Origin: a virus | Length of the DNA: 28,114 nt | Virus record (IMG/VR): IMGVR_UViG_3300042465_003522 | Coordinates: 1-28,114 of that record | Reading direction: 5' to 3' (one strand) | In this document: one piece after another, positions 12,439 to 20,794 of the stretch | Layout of the letters: each line of letters starts with the position of its first letter | Numbering within the stretch: position 1 is the stretch's first letter | The notes under the pieces: model-generated | Databases searched by the model: none | What the model saw: only the letters and a program-made list of their open reading frames with translations | What the model was told of the DNA's origin: nothing | Translations under genes and position numbers: made by a program

Positions 12439-15400
12439 TTATGGTTTGTACATCACTGCCTGCATCTGTCTGACTAGGCCACCTTTGGCATAAGTAAACT
12501 CACCCTCAAGAATCAGCATCTTCTCTGTAGAAGTTTCTGGTTTGCGATTAAACTTCTTCATGAACTCATCTTCAGCAGATTCTCTTGTTGTTTTTGGAAT
12601 CTTATCATACAGAAGATTGATAGCTTTCTTTGGGTTCTTCTCCATGTAAATATCTTGAGCAGCTTCTTTTGTATCAGACAATGAAGACTGAATAGCTTTA
12701 TTAAGCAATTCCTTTTGCTGATTCATTGAACCTTGCTTATACAGTGGACTAGCCATTTCCTGTTCAGCAGCAGCTTTAACAAGACTGCGTGACAAACGAA
12801 TGTGCATGTTATCGAAATCTCTATCACCACTACTTTTATAAACAGAAAAAGGTTGAACTCCTAACCGAAGAAGTTCATTCTCTATAACACCTGTAGGCAT
12901 CTCAGGTTTAATACCAAGCATCTGCCGAGTAACAGTGGGTACCTTTTGCTCACCGGGTTGGAACAATGAAGGCTTTGCTGGATACTGTTGACGGAATCCG
13001 GGCAATTGACTCAGCACAGGTGCGGCAACACCTGCTCCAAAAGCACCTAATACTTCATCAGCTCTACTAGATTCTTTAGTATCAATGATTCGCATGTCAC
13101 CGCTAAAGGCACTGGCTGCTTCCCAAAAAGGATTAAGTACGTTGTCAAAGCGACCAGCAAAATCTCCAATGAGGCCACCAGCTTTGCGTTGTTTACTTTC
13201 ATCAATACCAGATTCGATACCTTCTTTAAGGGTGTCCACCATAGTCTTTTGAATTCCAGAAACCCTTCCCATGCCCACCATAATCTCTGTAAATTTAGCA
13301 CCGTCAAAATCACGAAGGCGACCAAGTTTCATCATTTCATAATCATTAACAAGGCTTTGTCTTCCTTCTGCGTTTGCAGGCATAGCGTCAATTTGCTTCT
13401 TTAATACAGCAGCATCGGCTTCTCGTTCTTGCGGTGTTAGTGTCAATGAGTACCAGCTAGTCTTACTCATATCTTTCATAAGTTTTGCAGCACCAGCTAG
13501 TGCCCACACCTGTACCAACGGAGCAATATTACTTGCATCTTTAACACTACCATCTTGATCACGGTATTGATAAAAGGGAAGGCTATCGTCTTTGTAATGC
13601 CATGCTGCTGTAACAGCTGCCATGCCTACAACAGAATCCATAACCTTGCGCTTACCATCATAAGACGCTCGTGATGCTTCGATTAGCTTTCCTTCTCCAC
13701 GCAACTTAGCAGCTGTTTGCAACTCCATCACTCCAGCACTACCGCTTAGTGGTGTTAGTCTATACGCATAACGCATAGCATTCATGGTGTATCGCAAGAA
13801 TGGAACAGTTAAATCCTTTAATGGTTTAGCAATTTCATTTCGTCGTGTAATATCAAGAACCTTAAATGCCAGATCTTCAGCAGATGCTTCAAAGCCTCTT
13901 TCACCTAATGCTCGTTGAGGTTTAAACTCATAAGACATTGTGAGCTTCATAGCATCGTCTGCTGCTGCTTCTAATATTGATTGTGGGATTGGTCGCTTGT
14001 TGGCAACAAAATCTAAGTAGTCTAATCCCATCTCTTTCATGCGTCGAGAAACACTATCAACAAACATAGGCCCACGAGTAACAGAGTCGAGTGTTGTATT
14101 CAGAACGTTCAACGACTTCAGAATCTTTACAGTTCCTGTCATATCAGCATCAACACCAACGTGAGTTAGCATGTTTGACAAGCGAGGATTGTTCTTCAAC
14201 ATCACATCTGTTACGTCAGCAGTAAAGCCGCCATCTACCATTTTTGTAACTAATGAAACACTATCGGCAAGGGATTGACCAATGTCTTGTTTGATACGAT
14301 TAGCCGGAAGAGGAACAACGTTACCGCCCAAATCATTAACAGCACGACCAGTTAGCGTAACAGTTTCTTCAAGAATATCAAGGGCATCAGTAATAGGAAC
14401 ACCCTTTTGTTTAACTCCTTTATATAACGTTACGGGAATATCTACAAGAACCGCCTTACCTATATCACCAGCAGTTTGAATGGCTGTAGCAAAGGCTACA
14501 CCAAAAGCATTTAGTACAGTTGTGCTAGGAGCCAGCACAGAAGCTGCCACACTTACGCCTGTAACTTTACTAACGCCTTTTAAAACACTATCTGTCCAGC
14601 GTTGTACACCCTCAGATGATTTGTACAACCTATCAACAGTTAGTTCAAGTTCGGGATCACCACCTGACAGCTTCTTTACAAAGTCTGCCATTGCCTTAGA
14701 CTTCTGCATCACAGCACCAGCATCTGACACAGACACTTTAAATGTATTTAAGAAATCAGTAGGATCAATGCCTGCTTTAGCAGCAGCATCTTTAATCATT
14801 TCAGGACTAGCAGTATCCAAGGCATTAATCATCCCTTGAGTAATCCTAGTTTCGTTTAAGTCTGGACGAAGTTCTGGGTTGTCCTTAAACAATTGTTTAG
14901 TAACGGTGTATATATCATTAATAACATTGTCGTTCAGCACAGCCTTTGTAACATCTGTCTGTGGAGACAACATATCCATTGTTTGCCTAGCTGCTGCCTT
15001 CTCTTCAGCTGTACCGAATAGAGGGCCAAGCTCACCCTTCACCAATTGCTCTCTAGTTTTAAATTGCTCAAGCCAATCAGCATTAGCCTTGTCTACATCA
15101 GCAGTGGGTTTCATCCTTGCTTTTTGTAAGTCAAGCATTCGCTGTTCAGTTGTTTTCAAAGCAGCAGTGTCAACACCTCTACCTAATGCTTTTGTAGTGA
15201 CAGCAGCTAATCCTGTTTCAAGTGCAAGTTGTGAATATGAAAACTCTTTCTGCAATCCCAACTCAACTCTAGTCTTCTGGGTAACTGCACTGGTTCCAGC
15301 AGCAACACCTGCTTCAACACCAGCAGCAATTGTGGAAGGCTTAAGCGCCAGCTTGGTAGCAGTGGTAACACCACGCAACGATGCTTGCTTAACACCCCAG

Positions 15401-16095
15401 CCAACACCACCACTTGCATAGGTCAAAGGACTTTCAAATGGATTAAACGTTGCTCGTAATTCTTCACCAATGTCTGTACCTAGTTTGCTTGAAAGCTCAT
15501 ATGCTTTACTTGCTATTTGTTTTTGATATGGATTAGCATTGAGCGCCCATGTCAACTCATCAACCGTTGCTAGGTCGCCTCGTACAAAGCTACTCTTAAA
15601 CGCTTCCATGATTTCTGTTGGCGTCTTAGGCAATGGTTTGTTTGGTTGACGCTCTGCTAGGTAGGTTGTAGCAACAGATAATATTGCAGGAGCCGTGGCA
15701 GCTGTCTCTGTAGACAACCGCTTAGTGCGTCCACCCATTGGTTGCTTTGGATACATACCAAACACAGCACCACCCGGCCCCTCAACACCGGGAGTTACAC
15801 TAGGTGTTGTACGCTTTGGAGTTATTTGTAATAGCGCCTTGTCAAACTCTGTGAAGTCTGTAAGGGCTTTAGCTGGCGCAACAGGCTTAGGTGTTGCAGC
15901 TTCTAACGAGGGTTGTGCTGGTGGCGCTATAGGCAATAATGTTTTAGGATTAATGGCACCGGGAGGAATTGCCGTTAGAGGTGGTGTAGGCTTTGCAGCC
16001 ACGACAGGTTGTACCGCTTTAGGAATCAAGTCATCGTAGAGTGAAGTTCCTACACTAGGTTTAGAAGCAGGAATAAGATCGCTATAGTCTGCCAT
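12439..16095 (-). CDS. Large internal virion/ejection-type protein, 1218 aa
   Basis: Last gene of the minus arm and the second largest protein in the window. The N-terminus carries two copies of a short motif (DYSDLIPA at 3-10, LYDDLIPK at 19-26), followed by a Pro/Ala-rich linker to about residue 90. The rest is mostly helical with charged segments. One long hydrophobic stretch lies around residues 510-560 (VSVAASVLAPSTTVLNAFGV and onward), and the C-terminus ends AKGGLVRQMQ. Size, composition and position after other internal-type genes resemble the DNA-ejection proteins of podoviruses (T7 gp15/gp16, P22 gp16/gp20) in a general way. I see no lytic transglycosylase or other enzyme motif. The product name is inferred from context. 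Confidence 0.6.
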   Translation of the reverse strand: MADYSDLIPASKPSVGTSLYDDLIPKAVQPVVAAKPTPPLTAIPPGAINPKTLLPIAPPAQPSLEAATPKPVAPAKALTDFTEFDKALLQITPKRTTPSVTPGVEGPGGAVFGMYPKQPMGGRTKRLSTETAATAPAILSVATTYLAERQPNKPLPKTPTEIMEAFKSSFVRGDLATVDELTWALNANPYQKQIASKAYELSSKLGTDIGEELRATFNPFESPLTYASGGVGWGVKQASLRGVTTATKLALKPSTIAAGVEAGVAAGTSAVTQKTRVELGLQKEFSYSQLALETGLAAVTTKALGRGVDTAALKTTEQRMLDLQKARMKPTADVDKANADWLEQFKTREQLVKGELGPLFGTAEEKAAARQTMDMLSPQTDVTKAVLNDNVINDIYTVTKQLFKDNPELRPDLNETRITQGMINALDTASPEMIKDAAAKAGIDPTDFLNTFKVSVSDAGAVMQKSKAMADFVKKLSGGDPELELTVDRLYKSSEGVQRWTDSVLKGVSKVTGVSVAASVLAPSTTVLNAFGVAFATAIQTAGDIGKAVLVDIPVTLYKGVKQKGVPITDALDILEETVTLTGRAVNDLGGNVVPLPANRIKQDIGQSLADSVSLVTKMVDGGFTADVTDVMLKNNPRLSNMLTHVGVDADMTGTVKILKSLNVLNTTLDSVTRGPMFVDSVSRRMKEMGLDYLDFVANKRPIPQSILEAAADDAMKLTMSYEFKPQRALGERGFEASAEDLAFKVLDITRRNEIAKPLKDLTVPFLRYTMNAMRYAYRLTPLSGSAGVMELQTAAKLRGEGKLIEASRASYDGKRKVMDSVVGMAAVTAAWHYKDDSLPFYQYRDQDGSVKDASNIAPLVQVWALAGAAKLMKDMSKTSWYSLTLTPQEREADAAVLKKQIDAMPANAEGRQSLVNDYEMMKLGRLRDFDGAKFTEIMVGMGRVSGIQKTMVDTLKEGIESGIDESKQRKAGGLIGDFAGRFDNVLNPFWEAASAFSGDMRIIDTKESSRADEVLGAFGAGVAAPVLSQLPGFRQQYPAKPSLFQPGEQKVPTVTRQMLGIKPEMPTGVIENELLRLGVQPFSVYKSSGDRDFDNMHIRLSRSLVKAAAEQEMASPLYKQGSMNQQKELLNKAIQSSLSDTKEAAQDIYMEKNPKKAINLLYDKIPKTTRESAEDEFMKKFNRKPETSTEKMLILEGEFTYAKGGLVRQMQAVMYKP

Positions 16096-16097
16096 GT

Positions 16098-17603
16098 TTA
16101 CAAATCCTGTCCAGTTGCTTCTTTAAATCGTTTCTTTACTTGATCAGCATTTGCTCCTTGCCGAATAGCATCATTAGCAATTGCTCGTTCTTCAACAATG
16201 GTACGTTTAACAGGGGCCACTGGCGATGCAGGCTTAGCAAGTGGAGTAGGAGCAACAGCCATTGGTGTAGCAGCACGATCCTTCATCGCCTGATCATATT
16301 GCTCATCAGTTCTACCGGGCACAGCTTGTACCCATTCATCCTTGGGTGTCATAGAACCAGCAACGGGTTTCCTAGCGCCCAGACCTTTAGGGTTAGCAGG
16401 GGCTGCACCGGCTCCACCTAAGTTATAATTGTTCATCAACTCTTGCACACTGTCGTACATTGGAACACCGTCAACAATGTATTCATTGGCAACCAGAGAT
16501 TCTTTCATATATCCCTGTTCTGCTTTAAACATCTTCTGTTGTTCTTCCAGTGGCATATCTTGTTTCTTAGTAGTAGAGATGTGCACTGTTCCGTCATCAA
16601 GTTTAATTGTTTTAAACTCAACAAACTTACGCCAAGATGCACCGACATCATTTTGCATCCTATTGTTAGCATAATCTAAAGCGCTTGTTTTTATTTTACT
16701 GTATGCTTTTTGTTTGTCTTCATCTGTCTTACTAGAGATGGCAGCGGCGTGTCCTTTAATTGCTGTTTGTGTTGATAACAATTGAGCAGCAAGTTCTTGT
16801 TTTTTAGCTGGGTCTTTTTCATCAAGCACTGCAACATTCAAACGATTTGCTCGTTTCTCTAATGTATCGGCAACAGCTGGTGCATATTTATTAACAACAG
16901 ATAGACGAGTTGCAGCGTCTTTATACTCTTGACTTTCTGGGCCAAACTTAATACCAGCTTGTACAACAGCCACCTGTGCTAGATCTTGCATAGCCTCAGT
17001 AGACTTTGGAGATCTAAGTACAGACAGATCAAACTCAGCAGTGCCAACAGGTTTAACTTGTTCTTGCATAGCTCCTTGCATTTGCTCCAAAGGAACACCA
17101 ACGACATTGGCATACTTCTGAGCAGCTGTCTTACCAGCGCGGTCACCAAAGCCTTCAAAGAAACCAGTCTTCTTAAGATCGTCAGCTTTAGTAGCAACCA
17201 TAGAAGGAATCTTATATGCTTGTGCGATACGATCTTTAGCCGTACCGGGAATGTTATCCTCAGTCATTTTAATAATCTGAGAAGCGCTTAGTGTGGAGAG
17301 GTCTACATCCTTATCTGTAACAGCCTTAACAAGCTGAGCACGTACAGCAGGATTGATACCAATTTGATACATCTGTTGCTCACTGAACGCAGCATTGCCA
17401 ACATAGTTAGCTTTGATAATGTCTAGGTCAGCGCTGGCAGAGTCTACCAATTCACGATTATCTTTAACAAGCTTTGCATACCGCTCGTGCATAGTCTTTG
17501 TAGAAGCTAGTGCATATGTCTTTGCTTCTTCTTCAGCTTTGTCCATCTCTTCAGACAAACCTTTAGCGGCACCGCCAGCAAATGCTAATAGATTGAAACC
17601 CAT
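16098..17603 (-). CDS. Probable internal virion protein, 501 aa
   Basis: The N-terminus has a hydrophobic, glycine-rich start (GFNLLAFAGGAAKGL) followed by a long charged helix (EEMDKAEEEAKTYALASTKTM and onward). The body is helical with many Ala, Lys and Gln. A Pro/Ala-rich linker (about 445-465) precedes a last helical element with ANDAIRQGANADQVKKRF. This C-terminal pattern occurs at the ends of phage virion proteins that I associate with ejection complexes. No enzymatic motif is seen. It is separated by two bases from the 1218-aa gene and by three from the 165-aa gene, so the set is probably made together. Confidence 0.55.
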   Translation of the reverse strand: MGFNLLAFAGGAAKGLSEEMDKAEEEAKTYALASTKTMHERYAKLVKDNRELVDSASADLDIIKANYVGNAAFSEQQMYQIGINPAVRAQLVKAVTDKDVDLSTLSASQIIKMTEDNIPGTAKDRIAQAYKIPSMVATKADDLKKTGFFEGFGDRAGKTAAQKYANVVGVPLEQMQGAMQEQVKPVGTAEFDLSVLRSPKSTEAMQDLAQVAVVQAGIKFGPESQEYKDAATRLSVVNKYAPAVADTLEKRANRLNVAVLDEKDPAKKQELAAQLLSTQTAIKGHAAAISSKTDEDKQKAYSKIKTSALDYANNRMQNDVGASWRKFVEFKTIKLDDGTVHISTTKKQDMPLEEQQKMFKAEQGYMKESLVANEYIVDGVPMYDSVQELMNNYNLGGAGAAPANPKGLGARKPVAGSMTPKDEWVQAVPGRTDEQYDQAMKDRAATPMAVAPTPLAKPASPVAPVKRTIVEERAIANDAIRQGANADQVKKRFKEATGQDL

Positions 17604-17606
17604 ATA

Positions 17607-18104
17607 TTAAATAACCTCTTTGTTCTTACGACCCATCAAACCAGACATAGGCTTTTCAGTTTCTTCTGTAGGTTCAACAACCTTCTTATTAAAAATGTTA
17701 GACACTGCTTCACGAATAATACGTGGAGAAACAGTTTCTTCTTTATCATAATCTGAAGCAAACATCTTAGTGTCAATGTTATTGAACACAGCAACAGACT
17801 TAAGCATTTCCATAATCACAGGCATAGCCAAGATGCCGGTATCAACTGTGTGCACACCTTTGCTAACACCACTAAGCATCATTGCTTCTGCAATGACAGA
17901 TAATGGAATACCAGTTTCAAGACTATCTAGCAAATCGTTGCCTGTTTCCTCAGACATAATACCTTCCATATAAAGCTTTACAACATCTGTAAGCTTTACA
18001 AACTTAGGAGGTTGTTGCCATGATCGGCTCTTATCAGGGGCTGTCCAAGATATGCCGGGTGGGATAGAACGATTAACATCAGCCGGTGTTAGTTTAGTTG
18101 CCAT
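17607..18104 (-). CDS. Hypothetical virion-module protein, 165 aa
   Basis: A soluble protein with a polar N-terminus containing PPGISWTAPDKSRSWQQPP. A helical middle follows, with MEGIMSEETGNDLLDSLETG and VIAEAMMLSGVSKG, and then a charged C-terminus rich in Glu and Lys. It has no membrane segment or catalytic pattern. It is placed among the probable internal virion genes with three-base spacing on both sides, so a structural or assembly role is likely, but I do not recognise the family. Confidence 0.6.
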   Translation of the reverse strand: MATKLTPADVNRSIPPGISWTAPDKSRSWQQPPKFVKLTDVVKLYMEGIMSEETGNDLLDSLETGIPLSVIAEAMMLSGVSKGVHTVDTGILAMPVIMEMLKSVAVFNNIDTKMFASDYDKEETVSPRIIREAVSNIFNKKVVEPTEETEKPMSGLMGRKNKEVI

Positions 18105-18107
18105 AGT

Positions 18108-18320
18108 TTATTTAGATGCTTTCATCATTTGATCACGAGCTTCTCGAATGCCTTCAATATAATCAGCAATGATTTCAACAGCTTCTTTCTTCATTGCAGG
18201 CATACCCTTCTCAGCAGGGGCAGCAAAGCCACCAGCGGGTTTAGCTTTCTTTGTAGCTTTACCAGCACGTTGTTCAAGAATTGTTTCAATCTTTTTAAAG
18301 TAACTTTTAATGTGTTGCAT
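18108..18320 (-). CDS. Small basic hypothetical protein, 70 aa
   Basis: I chose the ATG at 18320; an upstream TTG at 18344 would overlap the previous gene and is less likely. The protein has an N-terminal amphipathic helix (HIKSYFKKIETILEQRAG), a Lys/Ala/Gly-rich hinge (KATKKAKPAGGFAAPAEKG) and a C-terminal helix (AVEIIADYIEGIREARDQMM). The length and two-helix form could fit a small scaffold, head or assembly partner. No family is recognised. It lies eleven bases after the stop of the 820-aa gene. Confidence 0.55.
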   Translation of the reverse strand: MQHIKSYFKKIETILEQRAGKATKKAKPAGGFAAPAEKGMPAMKKEAVEIIADYIEGIREARDQMMKASK

Positions 18321-18331
18321 ATTATATGTTA

Positions 18332-20794
18332 TTAAAGAAGCCAAGCCAATGCTGCTTTAGCAATGAAAGATCCAACAGCAGAAGAGGACGCTGCATCTGC
18401 TGCTTTACCTGCTGAGGTTACTGAAGCATTTGCGGAGATGGTTGATTTAGCAATTTCAACAACTCGATCTTGTTCTTGCTCACCACTCTTCCAAGACATT
18501 TCAAGCAAGTCTTTATAGATTAGATTTTGCTGAGCATACACACTAGCTGACATGTCTGTAGCATTCTTTGCATTCACAGCATTAGCAGCATTGGTAGCAG
18601 CAGTATTTGCTGTAGAAACATCAGCAAGTGTTTTAGCATTTGCAATGTTAATCTGAGCAGTCATAGTAGCATTGAAGTTCTCACGCTGGTTAGTTTGCTC
18701 AGCGTTAAACTTAACAAGTTCATTAGCAGCGTTAGCATTAACAACAGCAATCTTATTCTTTTCAGCAGTGTTAAACTGATTAGCTGTTAGAGCAAGAGAT
18801 GCGTTAATCTTATCTGCATCAAGCTTGTTGGTAGCGTTAGTGGCAGCAGCAGCATTTGCGGCAGCGGTGTCACTAGTGATGGACTGAGAAATCTGTTGTG
18901 ACTTAAGCACAGCCATCTGTTGTTTATTATCCAAGTTCTTTAAGTCAGTTTCTAGGAAGGCTCTAGCATTCTGCACATTAGCTTGTTGCAGGTTGTTCAG
19001 ATTAGCCAGATCCATAGAAGCAGCAACAGCAGCGTTAGCAATTGTTGCAGACTGTGCAGCATTCAACTCAGCCAAGCCAACCGATTTCATCATTTCGGAA
19101 TTATGAAGAGTGGCTGTCTCTGCTGCTTTAAATGTCATGTTAGCATTTTCTGACACACGACTAGCATTGAGCACAGCAGCTTGTTGTCGATTGTCTAATA
19201 TCTTACCCTGAAGAGCAGCTTCCAATTGTGCATTAGCCAAAGCTGTTTGTTGCCTATTAGAAGTGTTAGAAATATCAACTTGCACCTGCATAGAACTATT
19301 ATGCAAAGCAGCTTGTTGTACATTGTTTAAATTGATATTGGCTTGTTCAGCAAAACGAGCAGCATTAACAACAGCAGCTTGTTGCATGTTGGTTAAGTTC
19401 TGTCCCTGTAGGGCTGCTTTAATCTGCGTATTAGCAAGCATAGTTTGCTGCATGTTGCTAAGGTTCTGACTCTGCAAAGCAAACGAGTTGGTTGCATTGG
19501 TTACCCGTGCCTGTTGCTCATTAGACAAGTTCTGCAAAGACAAACCTTGTTGAGCAGCGGCATTGGTCAATGCTGTCTGTTGACGATTGTTCAGATTCGC
19601 CATACCCATCTGAGCAAACACCTGAGCATCCTGTGCGGCAATGGGCAAGGCAGACTCCATAGCAGCCTGAAACACAGCTGTAGCAGCCATAGAGCTACTA
19701 CCTAGGCCACGCGATGACATAGCGGCATTAGCTGCCCTAATTGCACCAGCAGCCCATGCTGGCGTCTTACCATCATCAAAGCTCTTCATCAAGTCAGTGA
19801 GTTGTCCCTGCACTGTAGACTGAGCATTAACATCACCTTGTGCTGCCAGTGCCAAAGTGCCAGCGTCAACAGTGAACTTCTCAAGACGAGCAGCAACAAC
19901 TGTAGCATCTGGTGCCAACCCTTCAGAGACAATGGCTGTAGCTTGAGCCATGTCTGATTCTTTAATTGTCTGTGCCTGTACCAACTGCTCAGGAGTGACA
20001 ACACCCTGCGCTGCAACAACTGCTGTAGGTGCCGCTGTCTTTTCAGCAAGAGATTTAATTGCAGCGGCTTCTGTGACAGGGGTAACTAGTTCTTCAGCAG
20101 CTGTGGTGCGAACACCAGCAACAACGGGAGCTTTATATTCAGCACCAACTGTTTCTGCTGCTGCCTTAGCCTCTGGAGACAACTCACCTTGTGCTGCTTC
20201 AACTTTAGAGCCTGCACCAACTGTTCCGGTTGCAGCAACTTGCTTAGCTTGTGCTGCTTCTATAGCGGCCCGTGAAGCTTCTGCCGTAATGGCACCAGCT
20301 GTAATTGCCTCTGGCGCAGCAACAGGTGTTGGAGCAGCCACTTGTGTAGCAGTGCCTGTAGCAACTGTAGTGTCTGGGGTGAAGCCAGCTGTTAGACCTG
20401 CTGCTGTCATGTCTGTTTGAGCAGCTGTGTAGGTTGTAGCTGTAGGTGCAACAGGTACTAGTGGTGGCTCTGGTGCTGGAGCAGGTGCTGGAGTAGGTGC
20501 TGGAGTAGGTGCTGGAGTAGGTGCCGCCACAGGAGTTGGCGCAGGTGCTTGAGCAGGTACTGCTACTCGAGCTTGTAAATCAGTATTCCACGCTCCCCAA
20601 TCAGGCATATCACCACCCTCTCGCATCTTAACAACACCACCCTTAGCCATATACTTAGTAGCAATGCCAGCAAAGCGTTGAGAGTCAGCAGGGGATGATG
20701 CAAGATATTCATCAAACATTTGCATTGGGCCATCATAGCCCATCTTACGTGCAACAATTTCACGCTGCTTTGCGGTGAAAGTTTCTTTAGCCAT
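18332..20794 (-). CDS. Repeat-containing probable internal virion protein, 820 aa
   Basis: The N-terminal 60 residues include EIVARKMGYDGPMQMFDEY and AKGGVVKMREGG. A low-complexity Pro/Ala/Thr-rich linker spans about 78-120, and an Ala/Thr/Val-rich helical region continues to 399. Residues 400-751 consist of sixteen contiguous 22-residue repeats with the core N-L-x-N-x-Q-Q-x-A-x-x-N-A. The last 69 residues are helical and end in the hydrophobic FIAKAALAWLL. There is no enzyme motif. The position between lysis genes and other large virion proteins suggests an internal or ejection protein. The extended repeat helix could form a tube, a coiled coil or a membrane-active surface. Tail-fibre or tape-measure roles are alternatives. 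Confidence 0.6.
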   Translation of the reverse strand: MAKETFTAKQREIVARKMGYDGPMQMFDEYLASSPADSQRFAGIATKYMAKGGVVKMREGGDMPDWGAWNTDLQARVAVPAQAPAPTPVAAPTPAPTPAPTPAPAPAPEPPLVPVAPTATTYTAAQTDMTAAGLTAGFTPDTTVATGTATQVAAPTPVAAPEAITAGAITAEASRAAIEAAQAKQVAATGTVGAGSKVEAAQGELSPEAKAAAETVGAEYKAPVVAGVRTTAAEELVTPVTEAAAIKSLAEKTAAPTAVVAAQGVVTPEQLVQAQTIKESDMAQATAIVSEGLAPDATVVAARLEKFTVDAGTLALAAQGDVNAQSTVQGQLTDLMKSFDDGKTPAWAAGAIRAANAAMSSRGLGSSSMAATAVFQAAMESALPIAAQDAQVFAQMGMANLNNRQQTALTNAAAQQGLSLQNLSNEQQARVTNATNSFALQSQNLSNMQQTMLANTQIKAALQGQNLTNMQQAAVVNAARFAEQANINLNNVQQAALHNSSMQVQVDISNTSNRQQTALANAQLEAALQGKILDNRQQAAVLNASRVSENANMTFKAAETATLHNSEMMKSVGLAELNAAQSATIANAAVAASMDLANLNNLQQANVQNARAFLETDLKNLDNKQQMAVLKSQQISQSITSDTAAANAAAATNATNKLDADKINASLALTANQFNTAEKNKIAVVNANAANELVKFNAEQTNQRENFNATMTAQINIANAKTLADVSTANTAATNAANAVNAKNATDMSASVYAQQNLIYKDLLEMSWKSGEQEQDRVVEIAKSTISANASVTSAGKAADAASSSAVGSFIAKAALAWLL
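18542..19597 (-). repeat. Sixteen in-frame 66-bp (22-residue) tandem repeats
   Basis: Translated from 19597 downwards, the protein divides into sixteen consecutive 22-residue units without any insertion or deletion. The first eleven have the clearest consensus, N-L-x-N-x-Q-Q-x-A-x-x-N-A at positions 1-13. The later five have lost Q-Q but keep the Asn at position 12. At DNA level the copies are diverged, and the motif complementary to CAACAAGC-type sequence recurs every 66 bases. The constant phase shows strong selection on repeat length. Confidence 0.9.
20472..20519 (-). repeat. 12-bp tandem repeat encoding Pro/Ala/Thr linker
   Basis: Four consecutive copies of GGTGCTGGAGTA on the plus strand (the first has CA in place of TA) encode the APTP/PAPT linker near residue 100 of the 820-aa protein. 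Near-identical copies suggest recent slippage and possible length variation between related phages. Confidence 0.85.

Follow-up and report, generated by a model that had tools for sequence, protein, structure and literature searches.

An 11-residue length rule in the 22-residue repeat protein of an HMO-2011-type podovirus

An uninterrupted array of 22-residue units occupies much of an 820-residue protein encoded in the 28,114-nucleotide window (the whole stretch of viral DNA analyzed here), and raises the question of what structure such an array forms and what it does for the virus. We address it through the repeat itself, the lengths that it takes among relatives, its predicted fold and the genes that surround it.

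Repeat array, protein layout and relatives

The repeat protein gene occupies positions 18332-20794 on the minus strand in the list of open reading frames, with codons read from 20794 to 18332; the parts of this gene and the module genes given below are on the same strand. The protein begins with a conserved helical domain (residues 1-60; 20615-20794) that ends with an MAKGG motif and is missing from some relatives, e.g., CHOED. A Pro/Ala/Thr-rich low-complexity linker of free length among relatives (approximately residues 78-330; 19805-20563) leads to a second conserved domain (residues 322-398; 19601-19831) with the pattern W-A-x-G..RGLG.SS...A..E.A.PIA..DA, which contains Pro384 (codon 19643-19645), the N-side anchor of the length comparison described below. 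The repeat array consists of an N-part of eleven 22-residue units (residues 400-641; 18872-19597) and a C-part of ten 11-residue hendecads (residues 642-751; 18542-18871). The remaining C-terminal helix (residues 752-820; 18335-18541) has an Ala/Gly-rich hydrophobic end and includes the C-side anchor, Arg777 (codon 18464-18466).

The earlier note had read residues 400-751 (18542-19597) as sixteen 22-residue units that follow one another with no gap and keep Asn at position 12. The division is exact, and Asn is found at this position in 15 of the 16 units, the exception being Lys in unit 11. Of the Q-Q core, whose decay it also described, intact copies are present in units 1-7, 10 and 11. Column identity at period 22 reaches 0.249 compared to 0.111 +/- 0.006 in shuffled sequences (z about 25; 25.8). 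The 22-residue repeat is thus real and stronger than first described. As the dominant period, 22 was confirmed, but period 11 is almost as strong (z 24.0, with lower values at 33 and 44) and is the quantum of the family. Autocorrelation also reveals a 66-residue superperiod (z 10.9), which stems from the likeness between units 3-5 and units 6-8, a block duplication. No 66-bp tandem repeat was found by TRF on the DNA, so the units have diverged at the DNA level. The N-part is composed of true 22-mers with the consensus NLSNRQQAALxNAQxxAQLDLA, and the C-part of 11-mers, which are of the F-N-A type in homologues. Among the 352 repeat residues, Pro is absent, Gly accounts for ~1%, and Asn and Gln together make up 28%.

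The window protein has no match in Pfam, PHROG or NCBIfam, and searches with the repeat against Pfam, PHROGs, NCBIfam and PDB sequences returned nothing. Sub-threshold Pfam matches to YjbT, DUF1048 and LRR_EndoS were judged to be chance. Matches to PDB sequences, e.g., myosin light chain, were spurious and fell on the Pro/Ala linker; they are caused by a 12-bp tandem repeat at 20472-20562 that encodes its Ala-Pro stretch. Foldseek retrieved only generic helices from PDB (E > 2) and four significant matches from BFVD.

The window virus is an HMO-2011-type podovirus. The best public match, with 90% identity over 81% of the protein, belongs to an unclassified podovirus from Manatee Spring (MW202701.1), followed by HMO-2011-type roseophages, the SAR116 phage HMO-2011 and pelagiphages. 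Remoter matches were found in Vibrio phage CHOED, Aeromonas phage MQM1, Pseudoalteromonas phage Slicky01 and Sinorhizobium phage phiM6; the CHOED protein matched only itself in a search against viral contigs. The matched relatives are annotated as hypothetical, except for the closest public homologue (MW202701.1, 15863-18454), which carries the evidently spurious label 'huntingtin'. HMO-2011 phage1322_25 and CHOED_013, annotated only as hypothetical, belong to the same family and have in common with the window protein both end domains, the repeat and the length rule, but contain fewer repeat units.

Length rule between the conserved anchors

Lengths were measured between two anchors outside the repeat: Pro384, which belongs to the motif A-x-P-I-A-x-x-D-A, and Arg777, which belongs to (G/A)-E-x-x-x-(D/N)-R. 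Their positions were taken from alignments or from profile HMMs that covered solely the flanks. In the initial 66 relatives, the distance between them always equals 8 modulo 11. The same was observed for all 192 proteins of the enlarged first set, which fall into ten length classes of 206, 217, 228, 239, 283, 371, 393, 503, 613 and 723 residues. A second search, run after the rule had been formulated, gave 75 measured proteins, all at 8 modulo 11, and 63 of them are not identical to first-set proteins; two more could not be scored, one with PLA replacing PIA and one cut off before the second anchor. This search added a new class of 404 residues (393 + 11), bringing the number of values between 206 and 723 to eleven. 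Altogether the 255 relatives show no exception, although by shared ancestry they are not independent events and correspond to at least ten length changes that obeyed the rule. The chance that ten random lengths agree modulo 11 is about 4e-10, and none of 200000 random length sets agreed at any modulus from 7 to 40.

The constraint is specific to the segment between the anchors. As controls, the position of Pro384, i.e., the length of the N-terminal portion, is scattered over all residue classes modulo 11, and the length of the tail beyond the rod varies freely. Within classes the segment aligns without internal gaps, for instance across 77 relatives of the 283 class, and same-length relatives remain gapless down to 22-39% identity. 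Across the family, the rod spans 15 to 62 hendecad-lengths. Growth of the N-part has mostly been by blocks of 22, 66 and 110 residues; however, single 11-residue steps in phiM6, CHOED and the 404 class indicate that the conserved unit is the hendecad, with 22 being its double in the N-part. The structural quantum is therefore 11 residues (three α-helical turns), not 22. The 283, 393, 503, 613 and 723 classes are separated by exact 110-residue (5 x 22) steps. Similarity between 110- and 242-residue blocks in the long members suggests, at the sequence level, that duplications of preferred blocks took place.

The C-terminal tails differ among relatives. A Peptidase_S74 domain (chaperone of endosialidase) was detected above the Pfam cut-off at the C terminus of four of ten scanned relatives, mostly of the 217 class (E down to 8.5e-12), and its motif was matched in two more, one of the 393 and one of the 503 class. 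In the 217-class proteins from contigs L061, L062, L067 and L071, it takes up the C-terminal ~60 residues. The Pfam scan of the window protein did not reveal this domain. Approximately half of the 283 class (49 members, e.g., L077, 12700-13413) carries a different extra domain, conserved and of ~70 residues, with the pattern CWVAREVYG...RWLxxRxWLKYxAPKWL...KHGExFAxFISNKPALKWxVR, an exchangeable tail module.

Predicted helix and its surface chemistry

AlphaFold2 modeling of the full protein with 56 sequences yielded an all-helical structure at low confidence (pLDDT 55), with a helix at residues 623-769. Because of this low confidence, AlphaFold2 was run a second time on a cropped 283-class homologue with the gapless alignment of 77 sequences. 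In the homologue model, the hendecad C-part and the C-domain are covered by one unbroken helix of 177 residues (pLDDT 80-91), and the 22-mer N-part is helical at low confidence. Thus, the single long helix that had been proposed is predicted with high confidence for the C-part only, and the N-part is modeled as all-helical with low confidence. The proposed correspondence of a 2 x 11 period to hendecads agrees with the modulo-11 rule, the all-helical prediction and a textbook 3-4-4 core in the C-part, where hydrophobic residues occupy hendecad phases 7, 10 and 3. In this part, the power at 98.2 degrees is 6.4 compared to 1.0 in shuffled sequences, and the heptad power is 0.5.

The N-part has a different pattern. 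Its second harmonic (8.3) exceeds the first (3.0) and no single stripe dominates, as would be expected from two opposite hydrophobic seams. Positions 2, 6, 13 and 17 of the 22-mer hold essentially no hydrophobic residues and are rich in Gln, Ser and Ala. On the helical wheel, the sector at 196-229 degrees is likewise occupied by Gln, Ser and Ala with no hydrophobic residues, and is a candidate lumen face. The strongest periodicity of the N-part, 131 degrees per residue, is not accounted for by a simple two-face helix.

Gene module and possible functions

The repeat gene heads a conserved module. In the window, it is followed on the minus strand by a small ORF of about 70 amino acids (18108-18320), a conserved 165-aa protein with the pattern GxSLTxxPxxRPW... 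(17607-18104), a 501-aa protein of gp15/gp20 size (16098-17603) and a 1218-aa protein of gp16 size (12439-16095). The same succession of the repeat gene, a small ORF and proteins of ~165, ~400-750 and ~820-1400 aa was found, with occasional insertions, in HMO-2011, CRP-1, HTVC115P, HTVC033P, CHOED, MQM1, Slicky01 and phiM6. In HTVC115P, a gene annotated as toxin-activating lysine-acyltransferase (L080, 8888-9337) lies directly downstream of the repeat gene and precedes a ~420-aa protein; other 371-class contigs have ORFs of similar size at this position. CRP-603 contains a gene for a 313-aa cell wall hydrolase (L079, 8531-9472) between the repeat protein and the remainder of the module. The repeat protein carries a motif (M/Y)AKGG(V/L)V(K/R) within its N-terminal domain (window 20650), and the 1218-aa protein has this motif at its very C-terminus (window 12492); the conservation of AKGG was insufficient to treat it as a signal common to the two proteins.

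The module resembles in order and sizes the podoviral gp14-gp15-gp16 operon (PMC8954989). Its three downstream genes follow the ejection-operon size order of about 200, 450-750 and 600-1300 aa, and the operon-like series of ~165, 500 and 1200 aa has the same order as T7 gp14-gp15-gp16, P22 gp7-gp20-gp16 and DEV gp73-gp72, whereas the repeat protein is an additional first gene. The four module proteins showed no similarity to T7 gp14, gp15 and gp16, which were compared as single sequences, so that distant homology could escape. Since no T7 match was obtained by profile, it is gene order and protein size in the conserved module that make an ejection role plausible. The earlier note had called the repeat protein a virion protein by inference; a search of the literature returned no virion proteomics or mass-spectrometry data for the protein or any relative.

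The tube-forming DNA pilot protein H of phiX174 (PDB 4JPP) is the nearest working analogue. The H tube contains hendecads such as QKEIAEMQNET and has a lumen lined by Gln, Asn and Arg (PMC7354561). Both proteins would combine a long α-helix with Gln/Asn-rich hendecads and a hydrophobic Gly/Ala-rich terminal segment, and both come from small phages that deliver DNA through a Gram-negative envelope; the 11/3 hendecad helix of H has its counterpart in the modulo-11 rule and the 3-4-4 core of the C-part. However, H has three hendecads followed by heptads, whereas the repeat protein extends over 15 to 62 hendecad-lengths with no heptad signal and belongs to a dsDNA podovirus. Homology between the two was not supported: hhalign gave a probability of 0.3%, and a local NLSxxQQ match to H was not significant, with 4 of 500 profile shuffles scoring equal or better. 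Only the C-domain profile, one of four, beat all 500 shuffles on H (6.1 bits, 20 tests), which we ascribe to coiled-coil composition bias.

The reading that we put first, with confidence slightly short of even, is an oligomeric hendecad rod within an ejection-like module that forms part of a DNA conduit comparable to that of H. The repeat protein would be the first of four module proteins that resemble podoviral ejection (internal virion) proteins. Its center would be a long, straight, amide-rich α-helical rod, with three turns per 11 residues, joining two conserved end domains whose rotational phase has to stay fixed; a duplication or a loss would then be tolerated only when it comprises whole hendecads. 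Several copies would probably pack side by side via two hydrophobic/alanine seams, and the tube or bundle that they make may contact DNA through a face lined by Asn and Gln. We infer that the protein could exit the capsid before the genome does and make up, or line, a section of a conduit across the cell envelope; the exact 11-residue steps would then probably exist because the rod is part of the DNA delivery tube. Against the conduit stands the length of the longest members, since a 723-class protein would measure ~100 nm as a single helix, too long for an envelope tube. Accommodating this length requires at least the N-part to fold back, to kink at unit boundaries or to stack differently.

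A serious rival, in our view unlikely, is an external fiber or tail needle in which a homotrimeric or dimeric hendecad coiled coil projects from the short tail and has its length set by the number of repeats. The S74 chaperone that ends a minority of relatives is usual on trimeric tail fibers and counts against the conduit, the single-stripe core of the C-part is as in dimers or trimers, and the repeat gene lies downstream of fiber and lysis genes. However, most family members have no S74 domain, neither beta structure nor a receptor-binding domain is predicted, and the ends of the protein, in contrast to host-range fibers, stay conserved in phages whose hosts range from SAR11 to Vibrio. The ejection-like module that always follows the repeat gene also argues against a fiber.

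A ruler or scaffold that acts within the head or tail at assembly, similar to a siphophage tape measure and not a conduit, appears improbable. Tape-measure proteins are helical and change in length by whole 11-residue units with aromatic markers (PMC3271669, PMC5099701), and the repeat family shows the same whole-unit variation together with F-x(10)-F in the C-part of homologues. In contrast to tape measures, the repeat protein has an Asn/Gln/Ala composition and is followed by ejection-like genes, and in HMO-2011-type phages, podoviruses with short tails (PMC9038755), a long tail that could be measured is absent. Nor does the repeat-gene neighborhood correspond to that of the tube genes of a long tail.

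It is similarly improbable that the 22-mers of the N-part build a solenoid or hinged stack, with a short helix and a linker in each unit, leaving a hendecad coiled coil to the C-part alone. The helices of the N-part in the AlphaFold2 model of the window protein start at residues 469, 491, 513, 535, 557 and 579, exactly 22 apart, which hints at kinking or stacking of the N-part. The N-part usually changes by 22s and 110s, and a plain helix would hardly be expected to show a periodicity of 131 degrees. On the other hand, these N-part helices have pLDDT of just 50-64 with no strands, longer continuous helices are retained in the homologue model, and the scarcity of Gly and absence of Pro speak against this arrangement.

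The amphipathic membrane-surface helix of the apolipoprotein or synuclein type, families with known 11- and 22-residue periods to which the earlier note had compared the repeat, is very improbable, as the helical moment of the whole repeat at 98-100 degrees does not rise above shuffles, its net charge is zero (22 basic and 22 acidic residues), its mean hydrophobicity is about 0, and the second harmonic is significant in place of a single stripe.

Length-quantized helical phage machinery was known before; what is new is the present uncharacterized family, which is conserved and to which none of the inspected records assigns a function. In the modulo-11 rule, nature has in effect varied the length of a helical viral machine in a large-scale experiment. 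The rule predicts that the hendecads form a continuous helix whose ends are locked in phase, and the family lends itself to asking how rod length relates to the virion core, to the thickness of the envelope or to the delivery of the genome. Phages of the HMO-2011 type rank with the dominant groups of marine viruses, and the result bears on how they cross the host envelope. Only tentatively can the family be proposed as a new class of podoviral ejection proteins, α-helical hendecad DNA conduits, convergent with phiX174 H, whose length between the anchors evolves by exactly three turns at a time and varies more than threefold. If true, this class of conduits would be shared by the abundant HMO-2011-type marine phages and by relatives as diverse as SAR11, Vibrio and rhizobial phages.
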